Source: Candidatus Micrarchaeota archaeon CG1_02_55_22 (GTDB lineage: Archaea; Micrarchaeota; Micrarchaeia; Norongarragalinales; UBA97). From it: DNA of 42,101 nucleotides. The notes beneath the pieces are model-generated. The model was not told where the DNA came from, did not search any database, and was given only the letters and a program-made list of their open reading frames with translations. Both the position numbers and the translations under genes were made by a program. The stretch lies in the NCBI GenBank assembly GCA_001871595.1, contig MNVH01000026.1, positions 1 through 42,101 on the forward strand, given 5' to 3'. Positions 30,407 through 39,459 of the stretch are shown in pieces. Numbering within the stretch: position 1 is the stretch's first letter; each line of letters begins with the position of its first letter.

Positions 30407-30555
30407 CTTAGTTAGGAAGCCTTATAGCGAGGAAAGGATTTGAACCTTTGATCTCCGGGTTATGAGCCCAGCGGGCACTCCTGGCTACCCTTAAGGTTTC
30501 GATGTTATCGAAATTACCTCGCTAGCTAGGAGTATGCTTGGCTTCCTGTACTAAG
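30407..30555. repeat. Imperfect inverted repeat enclosing tRNA-iMet
   Basis: CTTAGTTAGGAAGCC (30407-30421) and GGCTTCCTGTACTAAG (30540-30555) are inverted copies with a one/two-base difference in the middle. In the minus-strand transcript they form 8 + 6 base pairs around the tRNA, leaving 16 nt on the 5' side and 3 nt on the 3' side, and are followed by T6 (plus-strand A6 at 30401-30406). This could be a precursor-processing stem and/or terminator. CTAAGCAA also occurs in direct orientation at 30382-30389 and 30552-30559. Confidence 0.55.
30425..30523 (-). tRNA. Initiator tRNA-Met (CAT) with a 24-nt intron between positions 9 and 10
   Basis: The acceptor arm AGCGAGG/CCTCGCT plus A73, the D arm GGGT-AGCCAGGAGT-GCCC, the anticodon arm CTGGG-CTCATAA-CCCGG and the T arm AAAGG-TTCAAAT-CCTTT all fold. 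A1-T72 and the three G-C pairs at 29-31/39-41 mark an initiator. The only misfit is 24 extra nt (30491-30514) between nt 9 and nt 10. This insert gives BHB geometry: G4-G7 pair with the insert's CCTT, a 3-nt bulge TA^A, a 7-bp inner stem TTTCGAT/ATCGAAA with loop AAC, and a second 3-nt bulge AA^G10. The 5' end overlaps the nuclease gene stop by 2 nt. The mature length would be 75 nt. Confidence 0.9.
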
Positions 30556-31394
30556 CAAATTAATTGTGCTGAGGTAAGTATATATATCGAACGATTTAGC
30601 AGGTGTTTGTAAGCTTCCCTATCGCGCTCTTTTACTATTAGGGCTAATTTAGCAGTTGGAAAATGTTTTAAGAGGTATTCAAATTTCTTCTCTAGTTCCT
30701 TGCTTTTTTCAGCCACATCATCCCAACAAGTTACTTCCACAAAAATTGTTTTGCCTTGCTGAATGAAAAAGTCTATGGAATAAAAGCCATTTCGGTTTGG
30801 TGCGGTTATTATTCGTTCGTATTCGTAAGTTATTCCCGCTGAATTTAACGCGCGTGCCACCCGTACTTCTAATTCGTTATACATTTTCTCTCCGTTCGGC
30901 CCAACGCATTTCCGGCCAGTTCGGTTCAATCCTTTCAAGGACCAGATTCTACGTTCGGCTTGGTTTGCCGCAAACATGCCTTTTTTTGTCGTAGCGCTAG
31001 TGTTTCCACCCTTTCTGCATTTGCCGCTCCAATTAGACCTAAAATACGAATCTGTTTCTAGTCGAGTGCGTATAGTTTCAACGCCTTTCTTTGACGCAAT
31101 TTTGGCTTTGTTAATCCAGCGTGCTCTGAATTTTTTGTTTTGCATGTAGCGCCTAATACTTTCGCTAACGCTTTGTCGCATCTTAGTAGAATATTTCTTT
31201 CGGTAGCTCGCGTTTTTTAATTTGGCCGCAACCGCAAGCCCGCCGTTAGCCCGTGTTTGGCGATGGTATTCCTCCGTTCCCATCGCGGCGATAAGTTCTT
31301 CCCGAAGGATTGGTCTGGGCAGGCCTGATTGGATTGAGAGTGTTGCGAGACGTTCGCCGTTACAGAATGACTTAACCAGATCGGCGCTTTTCAT
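30522..31394 (-). CDS. PD-(D/E)XK-like nuclease with tandem DNA-binding-like repeats
   Basis: 290-residue basic protein, visibly richer in A/T at third codon positions than its neighbours. Residues 61-140 contain three repeats with [YF]-R-x-x-[YW]-x-x-K (at 64, 89 and 118), like NUMOD/homing-endonuclease DNA-binding helices. Residues 172-250 resemble a Vsr/DUF559-type restriction-endonuclease fold: NELEVRVARALNSAGITYEYE, FYSIDFFI (Asp208) and KTIFVEVTCW (Glu220, Thr222 in place of the usual Lys). A TATA-like CTTTTTATTTC about 28 nt before ATG 31394 gives its own leaderless promoter. The stop overlaps the initiator tRNA 5' end. A mobile, homing-like or tRNA-locus nuclease is inferred. Confidence 0.7.
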   Translation of the reverse strand: MKSADLVKSFCNGERLATLSIQSGLPRPILREELIAAMGTEEYHRQTRANGGLAVAAKLKNASYRKKYSTKMRQSVSESIRRYMQNKKFRARWINKAKIASKKGVETIRTRLETDSYFRSNWSGKCRKGGNTSATTKKGMFAANQAERRIWSLKGLNRTGRKCVGPNGEKMYNELEVRVARALNSAGITYEYERIITAPNRNGFYSIDFFIQQGKTIFVEVTCWDDVAEKSKELEKKFEYLLKHFPTAKLALIVKERDREAYKHLLNRSIYILTSAQLICLVQEAKHTPS

Positions 31395-31444: not shown

Positions 31445-32008
31445 TTAGCTTGTCTTCGTCGTCCGTGCGGCTTCTGCGAGTGGGTTTTCGAGTCGCATCT
31501 TGCTGTCAACGATTTTTTCGAGCGCGCTGATTTTGGCTTCGAGTTCACGCATGCCCTTGGTTCCATCGGAAAACTTGAGTTTCGCGTTGCATGTCGGGCA
31601 GGCAAAGTCCGCGTCCATCGCTTCCTCGAAGGTAAGCGTGGAACAGTTTTTCGCGCATTTGTAGATGACGACCTTGTCGCCCATCATCTTGGTGCGCATG
31701 CCCTCGTACTCTTTCTTAGTCATGAGCAAACGGTTTTGCAGCGCACGGCTCGCGTTGACGCGCCACGTATAAGTAAACCAACCCGACGTCATGTTCTTTT
31801 CGCGGTTGTACTCAACGATTCCGCAGTTGTGCAGTATGTTGAGTATGTTGCGTATCTCGGAGAGCTTGAGGCTCGTGTCTTTCTCAATCTTCTCGTCGGT
31901 CGCGCCGTCGCCAACCGCTTTTGCAACGCGGGCCCCGGGGTCGCCGGCGACTTCGCGGACGAACTCTTCGAGCTCCGCTTCAGAATTGATTTTCTTTTGG
32001 CGAGGCAT
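31445..32008 (-). CDS. tfe: Transcription factor E, alpha subunit (TFE)
   Basis: TFE stabilises the melted archaeal promoter complex together with TBP/TFB. The 187-residue protein has the N-terminal extended winged helix (about 8-90: SEAELEEFVREVAGD, then IRNILNILHNCGIVEYNREK and GWFTYTWRVN) and the C-terminal zinc ribbon with Cys118, Cys122, Cys137 and Cys140, then a coiled tail. An AGGAG SD stands about 10 nt before ATG 32008. The nuclease gene follows downstream after 50 nt with its own promoter. Confidence 0.95.
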   Translation of the reverse strand: MPRQKKINSEAELEEFVREVAGDPGARVAKAVGDGATDEKIEKDTSLKLSEIRNILNILHNCGIVEYNREKNMTSGWFTYTWRVNASRALQNRLLMTKKEYEGMRTKMMGDKVVIYKCAKNCSTLTFEEAMDADFACPTCNAKLKFSDGTKGMRELEAKISALEKIVDSKMRLENPLAEAARTTKTS

Positions 32009-32636: not shown

Positions 32637-32756
32637 GGGCTCGTAGCTCAGCTTGGTAGAGCGGCTGGCTCTTAACACCCCGTTTTTCTCAACCGCGTAG
32701 TCGGCGAACGAGGGGGGAAGTACAGCATGCCAGGGGTTCGAATCCCCTCGAGCCCG
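32637..32756 (+). tRNA. tRNA-Lys (CTT) with a 46-nt intron at about position 39/40
   Basis: Acceptor GGGCTCG/CGAGCCC with G73, D arm GCTC-AGCTTGGTA-GAGC, anticodon stem GCTGG with loop CTCTTAA, T arm AGGGG-TTCGAAT-CCCCT. To rebuild the 3' stem CCAGC, one C follows TTAA (32676) and CAGC resumes at 32723, so the intron is 32677-32722, between nt 39 and 40 rather than the canonical 37/38. The anticodon CTT can pair with AAG near the intron 3' end and CCCC with GGGG inside the intron, a relaxed BHB with 3 pairs in the central helix. TATA-like GTTTTAATTAATTG lies about 30 nt upstream. Confidence 0.92.
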
Positions 32757-36852: not shown

Positions 36853-39459
36853 GTGGATAACGCCAAGCTCAAGGACGAATTCTCAGGCGCGTATAAGTAC
36901 GGCTTCCACGAAACCGACGAGTCCGTCTTCAAGTCGCCTAAAGGCATCAATGCGGATATAGTCACCAATATATCGCGCATGAAGAAAGAACCCGCATGGA
37001 TGCTCGAACGCCGGCTCGAAGGCCTCAAGCTATTCAAGGAAAAGCCCCTGCCAACGTGGGGCGCCGACCTTTCCGCAATAGATTTTGACAACCTGCACTA
37101 TTATTCAAAACCCTCAGAGAAGCAGTTCGATTCTTGGGACGATGTCCCTGAAAAGATGAAGAACACCTTTAACCGCCTCGGTATTCCGGAGGCAGAACAA
37201 AAATTCCTCGCCGGGGTGGGCGCGCAATACGACTGTCTTACCGCCGATACCTTGGTGCCAACCTCGTCAGGACTAAAGAGTATTGCCGAAATCCGGCCCG
37301 GGGATTCCGTTTTTGCTTTGAATGAACCGTCGCGCCAACTGACACCTAAACACGTTATAGCCGTCGTTGATAAGGGAATACGCGAGGTTTTTGAAGTTAC
37401 TGCGGGGGGTCGCGCCATAAAAGCTACGTACAATCATCCTTTTCTTGTACTTTCTCATTATTCGAAGCCTGGTTCCAGACGCGGGCGTTATGTCCGCGAG
37501 TGGAAGTACCTGAACGAAATTCATCCGGGAGATCTAGTCGGTATTGCCAAGCAACTTCCTGATTACGGTTTTCCGCATAAGCTTAATGCGCCCGTTTTAA
37601 ACACCGTAGTTTCGATAACAAACCAGTTTGGCGCGGTTTGGACGCATAATTATGCTTACAAGTACAACGCTGTGAATTTGCCCAAGCAGACTGATTCGGA
37701 CCTGATGTGGCTTTTCGGCTTGTTTACGGGTGATGGTTGGATTGACTCTGCGGGTAAGAGAGTCTCGTTTGCAATACCGTCAACCGAACCAGAATTACGG
37801 TCAGAACTGGCGGCCGTGATTGACAAGCTGTTCGGTATTGGAGTTCGATTCGAGAACGAGTATAAGTTAACTATTCACAGCAAGGCCGTAGCCGGGTTCT
37901 TTACAGAAAACGGGTTTTTCGGCAAAGCAAAGTCGAAGAAATTGCCAGACTGGGTGTATGGTTTGCCGCGTGAGCAGATACTGGCCTTTTTGGGCGGATA
38001 TTTGGACTCTGATGGAACGGTGCTTTCAGGAAAGAAGAGTCACTCAGCGGTCCTGACCAGCGCCAACCCCGTGTTACTGGCTTCTGCGCGAATTTTGACC
38101 ATGCACGCTAGTCTTCAAGCTTCCAAGGTATTCAAAGTCGTACAAAAACAATCTTTTGGAAAACCGGGCGTACAAATCTTCTATCGTTTTACCATAAGCG
38201 GCAGCCTAAAAGATTTGGGCAGCAGAAACCCCTTTCGTTTCAATCGCTTTGGTAAAACAAAGTACGTTCATTCTTTTAATTCTGCAAGAAACACCACTTT
38301 CCGCAAGCATGTAAGCCCAGATTTGGGCTTCGCAAAGATTGATTCCATAGAACACGTCGGTCGCGAGCGTGTTTTTGATATAACTGTTGACAGTGAACAC
38401 AATTTCGTCGCTGAAGGCTTCATAGTGCATAACAGCGAAGTCGTATATCACCACCTAAAAGAATCGCTCGAAAAGCAGGGCGTAGTCTTCCTCGACATGG
38501 ATTCCGGCTTGCGCGAACACGAAGAAATTGTGAAGAAATACTTCGGCACCGTAATCCCGACCGGCGACAACAAGTTCGCGGCGCTCAACACCGCAGTGTG
38601 GAGCGGAGGTTCGTTCGTCCACATTCCGGCCGGCGTTAAAGTCGAGATTCCGCTTCAAGCCTACTTCCGCATCAACGCGAAGAACGTAGGCCAGTTCGAG
38701 CGCACCCTTATAGTTGCAGAGCCCGGCAGTTTCGTTCATTACGTGGAAGGCTGTTCTGCCCCAATATATTCTACCGACGCGTTGCACAGCGCGGTAGTCG
38801 AAATCCTCGCCTTGCCGGGTTCGCACGTCCGGTACACCACGATACAGAACTGGTCGAGCGACGTCTACAATTTGGTGACAAAACGTGCTAAAGCATTCCG
38901 CGACTCTTCAGTCGAATGGATCGACGGCAACATCGGCTCTAAGGTCACGCAAAAGTATCCTTGCATCATGCTCATGGAACCCGGTGCCCGCGGCGAAGTC
39001 GTCTCGATAGCCTTTGCCGGTAAGGGACAGCGCCAAGATGCGGGCGCCAAGATATTCCACCTCGCTTCCGATACGTCGTCGAATATCATCTCGAAATCGG
39101 TCAGCAAGGACGGCGGCCGAACGGTTTACCGCGGTTTAGTCAACGTTGCGCCAAACGCCTCGCGCGTCAAGTCGAACGTCGAGTGCGATGCGCTCATACT
39201 AGATGAGAAAAGCGCATCCGATACGATTCCGTACATGAGCATTAGTAACGAGGACGTGAGCATCTCGCACGAAGCAAGCGTCTCCAAGCTCGACGATGAG
39301 AAGTTGTTCTATTTGCGCACGCGCGGCTTTACTGAAGAGGCGGCAAAGCAATTGCTCGTGCAAGGGTTTATTGAGCCGTTCACGCGCCAGCTCCCAATGG
39401 AGTACGCCGTCGAGCTCAACCGGTTGATAGAACTGGAAATGGAGGGCTCTGTTGGATGA
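36853..39459 (+). CDS. sufB: Fe-S scaffold protein SufB, interrupted by an in-frame intein
   Basis: The 868-codon frame is SufB (about 468 residues after splicing) plus a 400-residue intein at 128-527. The N-extein contains the helical start and ends GVGAQYD; the C-extein resumes SEVVYHHLKESLE and runs through the SufB beta-helix (GVKVEIPLQAYFRIN, VHYVEGCSAPIYS, RTVYRGLVNVAPNA) to the C-terminal ISHEASVSKLDDEKLFYLRTRG. GTG start right after sufC; the stop overlaps sufD by ATGA. Splicing to the normal GAQYDSEVVYH junction is required for function. Confidence 0.97.
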   Translation: MDNAKLKDEFSGAYKYGFHETDESVFKSPKGINADIVTNISRMKKEPAWMLERRLEGLKLFKEKPLPTWGADLSAIDFDNLHYYSKPSEKQFDSWDDVPEKMKNTFNRLGIPEAEQKFLAGVGAQYDCLTADTLVPTSSGLKSIAEIRPGDSVFALNEPSRQLTPKHVIAVVDKGIREVFEVTAGGRAIKATYNHPFLVLSHYSKPGSRRGRYVREWKYLNEIHPGDLVGIAKQLPDYGFPHKLNAPVLNTVVSITNQFGAVWTHNYAYKYNAVNLPKQTDSDLMWLFGLFTGDGWIDSAGKRVSFAIPSTEPELRSELAAVIDKLFGIGVRFENEYKLTIHSKAVAGFFTENGFFGKAKSKKLPDWVYGLPREQILAFLGGYLDSDGTVLSGKKSHSAVLTSANPVLLASARILTMHASLQASKVFKVVQKQSFGKPGVQIFYRFTISGSLKDLGSRNPFRFNRFGKTKYVHSFNSARNTTFRKHVSPDLGFAKIDSIEHVGRERVFDITVDSEHNFVAEGFIVHNSEVVYHHLKESLEKQGVVFLDMDSGLREHEEIVKKYFGTVIPTGDNKFAALNTAVWSGGSFVHIPAGVKVEIPLQAYFRINAKNVGQFERTLIVAEPGSFVHYVEGCSAPIYSTDALHSAVVEILALPGSHVRYTTIQNWSSDVYNLVTKRAKAFRDSSVEWIDGNIGSKVTQKYPCIMLMEPGARGEVVSIAFAGKGQRQDAGAKIFHLASDTSSNIISKSVSKDGGRTVYRGLVNVAPNASRVKSNVECDALILDEKSASDTIPYMSISNEDVSISHEASVSKLDDEKLFYLRTRGFTEEAAKQLLVQGFIEPFTRQLPMEYAVELNRLIELEMEGSVG
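37234..38433 (+). mobile_element. SufB intein with LAGLIDADG homing endonuclease
   Basis: 400 codons in frame within sufB. Block A is CLTADTLVPTSSG with nucleophile Cys1; block B is KATYNHPFLV (Thr65, His68); the endonuclease has LAGLIDADG motifs LFGLFTGDG (160-168) and FLGGYLDSDG (252-261), each with an acidic residue; blocks F/G are RVFDITVDSEHNFVAEG and FIVHN, with terminal His399-Asn400 followed by extein Ser+1. All splicing residues are present. Third-position T/A use is higher than in the flanking exteins, which fits later acquisition. Confidence 0.96.

Follow-up and report, generated by a model that had tools for sequence, protein, structure and literature searches.

The window analysed here (42,101 nt, contig 60 of the 1.19-Mb, 82% complete assembly of Candidatus Micrarchaeota archaeon CG1_02_55_22) contains an initiator tRNA-Met gene that is interrupted by a tiny bulge-helix-bulge (BHB) intron and overlapped at its 5' end by an ORF for a putative nuclease. 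We consider it likely, with a probability of roughly 0.7, that the intron, whose BHB appears to depend on the 5' leader of the transcript, and the nuclease gene together represent a homing-endonuclease-like cassette that replaces the 5' end of the tRNA gene. The sequence evidence for the leader-dependent BHB and for the linkage to the nuclease is strong, and these two features, which were absent from the initial annotation of this DNA, are its more unusual ones.

The initiator tRNA-Met(CAU) gene lies on the minus strand (30425..30523) and measures 99 nt with the intron and 75 nt when mature, with an A1-U72 pair, a GGG/CCC anticodon stem and the anticodon CAU. Read from 30523 to 30425 on that strand, the sequence consists of AGCGAGGUA, AUUUCGAUAACAUCGAAACCUUAA and GGGUAGCCAGG..., in that order. 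Exon 1 (tRNA positions 1-9, AGCGAGGUA; 30515..30523, minus strand) is the same as the 5' end of intronless orthologues, and exon 2 (tRNA positions 10 to 73; 30425..30490, minus strand) is matched once in its own genome and is up to 94% identical to its orthologues. The gene is missed by ARAGORN, and the Rfam tRNA model recovers only its 3' part, with the D-loop motif AGCCAGG mistaken for the acceptor strand. According to the initial annotation, a second intact initiator gene elsewhere would make this copy a pseudogene; no further one was found in the 82% of the genome that is assembled, and the gene probably specifies a working initiator tRNA despite the interruption at 9/10.

A 24-nt insert on the minus strand at 30491..30514 was also claimed in that annotation, and its coordinates, strand and length were confirmed on re-reading. 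Since the AGCGRGGUA of intronless orthologues runs straight into GGGUAG, the insert must consist of 24 nt at the claimed 9/10 site, and excision of these nucleotides restores the ancestral junction (AGCGRGGTA/GGGTAG). The window sequence by itself is compatible with a cut at either 8/9 or 9/10, but the relatives decide for 9/10 because U8 is always followed by a purine (A, or G in genome G096), whereas the last base of the intron varies between A and T. The BHB geometry proposed earlier is likewise borne out, with a 4-bp central helix (G4-A5-G6-G7 with CCUU), 3-nt bulges at the two exon-intron junctions (UA|A and AA|G) and a 7-bp inner stem. Over 19 such introns, 70 of the 76 possible central-helix pairs are formed, against 39 expected from shuffled introns. 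Inner stems run on without a break for 5.5 bp on average, compared with 0.6 bp in the shuffles. The intron sequences are wholly unlike each other between genomes, while the pairing of the central helix is retained, and removal of the insert leaves an intact tRNA built on the same plan as the intronless orthologues. The intron is thus of the archaeal BHB type and would almost certainly be excised by the splicing endonuclease of the cell.

The initial annotation had predicted an endonuclease of broad specificity, and the genome does encode an enzyme that is probably of the epsilon2 type. A protein on contig C25 is colinear with the ARMAN-2 epsilon2 enzyme (4fz2) over residues 13-282 (E = 1.3e-82), and it keeps the Tyr160-Lys161 pair of the ARMAN-specific loop (TYKS in the query, TYKV in 4fz2), which is needed for relaxed specificity (PMC12397907). 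Its gene runs off the contig, such that 282 residues can be read and the C-terminal unit is cut off; the corresponding frames of relatives from the same family extend over 407-442 aa and include a match to the second domain. ARMAN archaea had previously been shown to have introns at unusual positions (PMC4033280). The motif in the window departs little from a strict BHB, which means that the intron does not by itself demand relaxed specificity; in the mechanism we propose, it would be this probable epsilon2 enzyme that excises the 9/10 intron.

The outer helix of the BHB is predicted to be contributed by the 5' leader, ACUCCUAGCU (30524..30533, minus strand), 9 of whose 10 positions are complementary to positions 14-23 of the D-arm (AGCCAGGAGU). 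Corresponding complementarities, from D-loop position 14 onward, exist in relatives with other sequences, as for example CCAGGCU/AGCCUGG in G096, CCAAACU/AGUUUGG in G020 and CCAAGCU/AGCUUGG in G101. Across 18 intron-bearing genes the leader:D-loop duplex has a mean energy of -9.95 kcal/mol, compared with -2.6 kcal/mol across 70 intronless ones (p = 6e-10). The paired leader:D-loop cells and the covariation score lie above those of all 500 shuffles and of every slide, and changes on both sides that compensate for each other are seen at the outer pairs -3:16, -4:17 and -5:18 as well as at one central pair. For the gene in the window, the computed probability of the BHB rises from 0.0007 without the leader to 0.93 with 20 nt of it. 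The fold described in the initial annotation consequently stands with the leader but not for the gene alone, which is predicted to fold into a five-way junction that leaves the acceptor stem intact. For most of the 19 genes, the BHB is promoted more by the native leader than by shuffled ones. The leader gives no such help in G024. In G050 it pairs weakly or in a shifted position, as it does at fixed register in several other genes (e.g. G291 and G277), so that a fixed-register test understates the pairing.

From these comparisons it is very probable that formation of the BHB, and with it splicing, depends on the leader. We envisage that the nascent leader would pair with the D-loop, open the acceptor and D arms and build the outer helix of the BHB, and that the cloverleaf would form only after the intron has left. 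RNase P cleaves off the 5' leader of tRNAs, and since it would thereby remove what the BHB needs, splicing should come first; the effect of the leader predicts an enforced order of splicing, then RNase P. It also advises caution, in that tRNA precursors folded without their leaders can hide a BHB. Participation of flanking sequence is a known idea, and flanks are already included by tRNAscan-SE 2.0 when an intron lies close to either end of a tRNA (PMC8450103); the systematic co-evolution of leaders is, as far as we have found, new.

Initiator tRNA genes with the 9/10 intron occur in 21 of 301 Micrarchaeota genomes, which belong to 9 families. A first pattern search had detected it in 8 of the 301, a looser pattern yielded 18 real cases, and 3 more were found beside nuclease genes. 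Left out of these numbers is G065, a candidate rejected because its gene is intact and intronless and has an AGCG upstream by chance. In a scan of 84,980 bacterial and archaeal genomes, one for each species, the true matches were confined to the Micrarchaeota group, a lower bound given the narrow pattern used; matches in Methanothrix, Halobacteria, Bathyarchaeota, Acidilobaceae and Methanomethylophilaceae proved false for the same reason as G065. Close relatives can lack the intron, as do G298 from the same family and G278 from the genus of the intron-bearing G277, which indicates that gain or loss of the intron is frequent. Elsewhere in the same order, five initiator tRNA genes (L069 to L073) contain two or three introns, combining the 9/10 site with one in the anticodon stem and, in some, another in the variable loop or T-loop.

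The ORF upstream of the tRNA (30522..31394, minus strand) encodes 290 aa with a predicted HTH and a PD-(D/E)xK nuclease domain. It belongs to no Pfam family, and the profile of its own family matches T7 endonuclease I (E = 7.7e-5). E176, D208 and E220 are invariant in 9 aligned sequences and, by alignment, profile and secondary structure, occupy the acidic positions of the alpha-beta-beta-beta-alpha-beta core, with fold matches that are weak and a structure model of mediocre quality (pLDDT 65). The lysine expected two residues past the second acidic residue is replaced by an invariant T222, so that nuclease activity is not certain; the invariant K230 or K237 could serve as a substitute. The copy in G277 contains a stop codon. 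Close homologues (E < 1e-39) were found in 8 of the 301 genomes, including this one, and all are directly upstream of an initiator tRNA gene with the 9/10 intron (Fisher p = 1.3e-10), versus none at 70 intronless initiator genes. The ORF overlaps the tRNA gene in 7 of these 8 loci. In the window its UAG stop is built with A1 and G2 of the tRNA, and in G101, G020, G277 and G088 the stop consists of U8-A9 and the first base of the intron; where the stop is of this latter kind (loci L207, L209, L211 and L212), a transcript shared by both genes would, once cleaved by RNase P, yield a nuclease mRNA that lacks it. The conserved neighbour on the other side is a TFIIE-alpha-like gene (31445..32008, minus strand), which at loci lacking the nuclease is usually the immediate neighbour of the initiator tRNA.

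More distant homologues of the nuclease exist as well. One in G014 immediately precedes a tRNA-Asn gene whose D-loop is interrupted by an intron, one in G669, from another phylum, neighbours tRNAs that also have introns in the D-loop, and a weak match (8e-4) in G019 lies within an intron of 16S rRNA. The 16S rRNA gene of G019 (L232) has two inserts, one with a LAGLIDADG ORF and the other with the PD-(D/E)xK ORF. Most weak matches in Thermoproteota turned out to be other proteins, and no relatives were detected in viral contigs, phages or plasmids.

Several other tRNA genes and homing-type ORFs were observed in the same genome. The window includes a second tRNA gene, likely for tRNA-Lys (32637-32756, plus strand), with an intron of ~50 nt near the canonical anticodon-loop site and no adjoining nuclease gene. 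At 37699-38088 (plus strand) there is a LAGLIDADG match within an 868-codon frame, probably an intein, and the genome has about ten further LAGLIDADG matches in long frames. Free-standing LAGLIDADG or LAGLIDADG-like ORFs adjoin tRNA genes on contigs C54, C68, C21, C67, C18 and C1 (L215, L254, L251, L256, L216 and L279), often overlapping the tRNA 5' end; the tRNA-Asp on C54 carries a BHB intron at 10/11, and the tRNAs on C21 and C67 are intronless. A LAGLIDADG gene on C56 (L258) that was considered for a link to a spacer tRNA with a T-loop intron was rejected, as it sits in a group I intron towards the 3' end of the gene for 16S rRNA. A disrupted tRNA on C12 (L267) has in its vicinity genes for a DNA methyltransferase and, possibly, for a restriction enzyme.

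Traces of how such an arrangement might have arisen can be recognized at related loci. Where the nuclease is missing, the TFIIE-alpha gene usually adjoins the tRNA, as in G298, with 41 nt between them. Upstream of the nuclease, G088 and G101 retain old intronless tRNA 5' ends (18/18 and 13/14 nt, respectively), and G296, which has no nuclease, carries a copy of AGCGAGGUA 34 nt upstream; an old 5' end was also sought upstream of the nuclease in the window, and none was found. The upstream 5' ends fit an insertion into the D-arm by an element that supplies a new tRNA 5' end, a scheme put forward earlier for a tRNA-Thr of Caldiarchaeum (PMC3293823). We propose that the nuclease gene forms a single cassette with the intron and its unusual leader, that the nuclease would cut intronless initiator tRNA genes in the D-arm, and that repair would then copy in the cassette with its new, intron-bearing tRNA 5' end. 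The intron would spoil the cut site for the nuclease and leave the tRNA functional. The parts of this proposal differ in strength. We lean towards an active nuclease that homes, and we see an even chance that the intron serves as protection against it. The odds are similarly balanced for a homing cassette of a new kind, with the 3' end of a nuclease gene fused to a replacement initiator-tRNA 5' end, a tiny protective BHB intron and a leader that, as an RNA switch, makes splicing precede cleavage by RNase P.

Other explanations have to be weighed against this one. The intron might be an ordinary noncanonical tRNA intron of the ARMAN type, and the nuclease an unrelated selfish gene that merely resides near tRNA genes. 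Thirteen of the 21 intron-bearing genes have no adjoining nuclease, which means that the intron can persist without it, and the intronless tRNAs on C21 and C67 have LAGLIDADG ORFs directly upstream as well; the restriction of the close nuclease homologues to one tRNA and one intron site (8 of 8, and 0 at 70 intronless genes), together with the overlap in 7 of 8 loci, nonetheless makes such a chance association unlikely. We also regard as improbable a site-specific integrating element of the kind proposed for Caldiarchaeum, whereby a recombinase would join an intron-bearing att site with an intronless one and leave a tRNA fragment upstream. Its anatomy would be that of the tRNA-Thr insertion in Caldiarchaeum (PMC3293823) and would account for the 5' fragments in G088, G101 and G296, but the ORF matches PD-(D/E)xK nucleases by profile (and weakly by fold) rather than tyrosine recombinases, and one weak homologue has its ORF within an intron of 16S rRNA. 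The nuclease stop codons that fall within the tRNA gene (7 of 8 genomes), four of them formed by U8-A9 and the first intron base, could alternatively reflect a regulatory or defence operon in which tRNA processing truncates the nuclease mRNA and so ties the level of the nuclease to tRNA maturation; we find this quite improbable, as no other defence gene is linked and a selfish element accounts better for the patchy distribution and for the relatives in rRNA introns. Retention of the 24 nt as a fifth arm, which the leader-less minimum-energy fold would allow, a pseudogene or an assembly error can practically be dismissed in view of the conserved central-helix pairing of dissimilar introns, the intact exons, the lack of another detected copy and the recurrence of the arrangement in 21 assemblies.

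The origin of archaeal tRNA introns in odd places is an old question, for which the main ideas are relaxation of the splicing endonuclease, transposition of introns and integration of mobile elements. With the homing-like cassette proposed here, a candidate agent (the nuclease), the empty site, old tRNA 5' ends and the intron are seen at one locus in several families, and their combination makes the origin of noncanonical tRNA introns directly testable.

Among known systems, the LAGLIDADG homing endonucleases of archaeal rRNA introns and I-SspI, the PD-(D/E)xK enzyme of a cyanobacterial tRNA-fMet group I intron, also tie a nuclease gene to an intron of a tRNA or rRNA, as the gene described here abuts the insertion that it would spread; their ORFs lie inside a ribozyme or long intron, whereas ours precedes, rather than resides in, a tiny BHB intron of the protein-spliced kind. 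The initiator tRNA gene of Thermofilum pendens, which is permuted in the T-arm (PMC4090602), is another disrupted archaeal initiator gene in need of BHB processing, but it has no 9/10 intron and no nuclease reported. The noncanonical BHB introns of Thermoproteales and of ARMAN-1 and -2, which are served by (alpha-beta)2 or epsilon2 endonucleases and can number up to three per tRNA (PMC4033280, PMC6379350, PMC12397907), share with the present case a short BHB intron outside 37/38, and their epsilon2 enzyme with the ARMAN-specific loop resembles the probable epsilon2 enzyme of this genome; the present intron differs in its location at 9/10 of the initiator tRNA, in an outer helix for which the 5' leader and the D-loop provide the strands, and in the linked nuclease gene. 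The insertion in the Caldiarchaeum tRNA-Thr consists of a tRNA 5' fragment, an ORF of 813 bp whose DNA-binding product was classed by SVMProt as a putative recombinase, and a tRNA with a new noncanonical intron at 24/25 (PMC3293823). That layout of fragment, ORF and intron-bearing tRNA is the same as ours in its anatomy, whereas the ORF at the initiator tRNA encodes a putative PD-(D/E)xK nuclease that recurs in several families at one tRNA.
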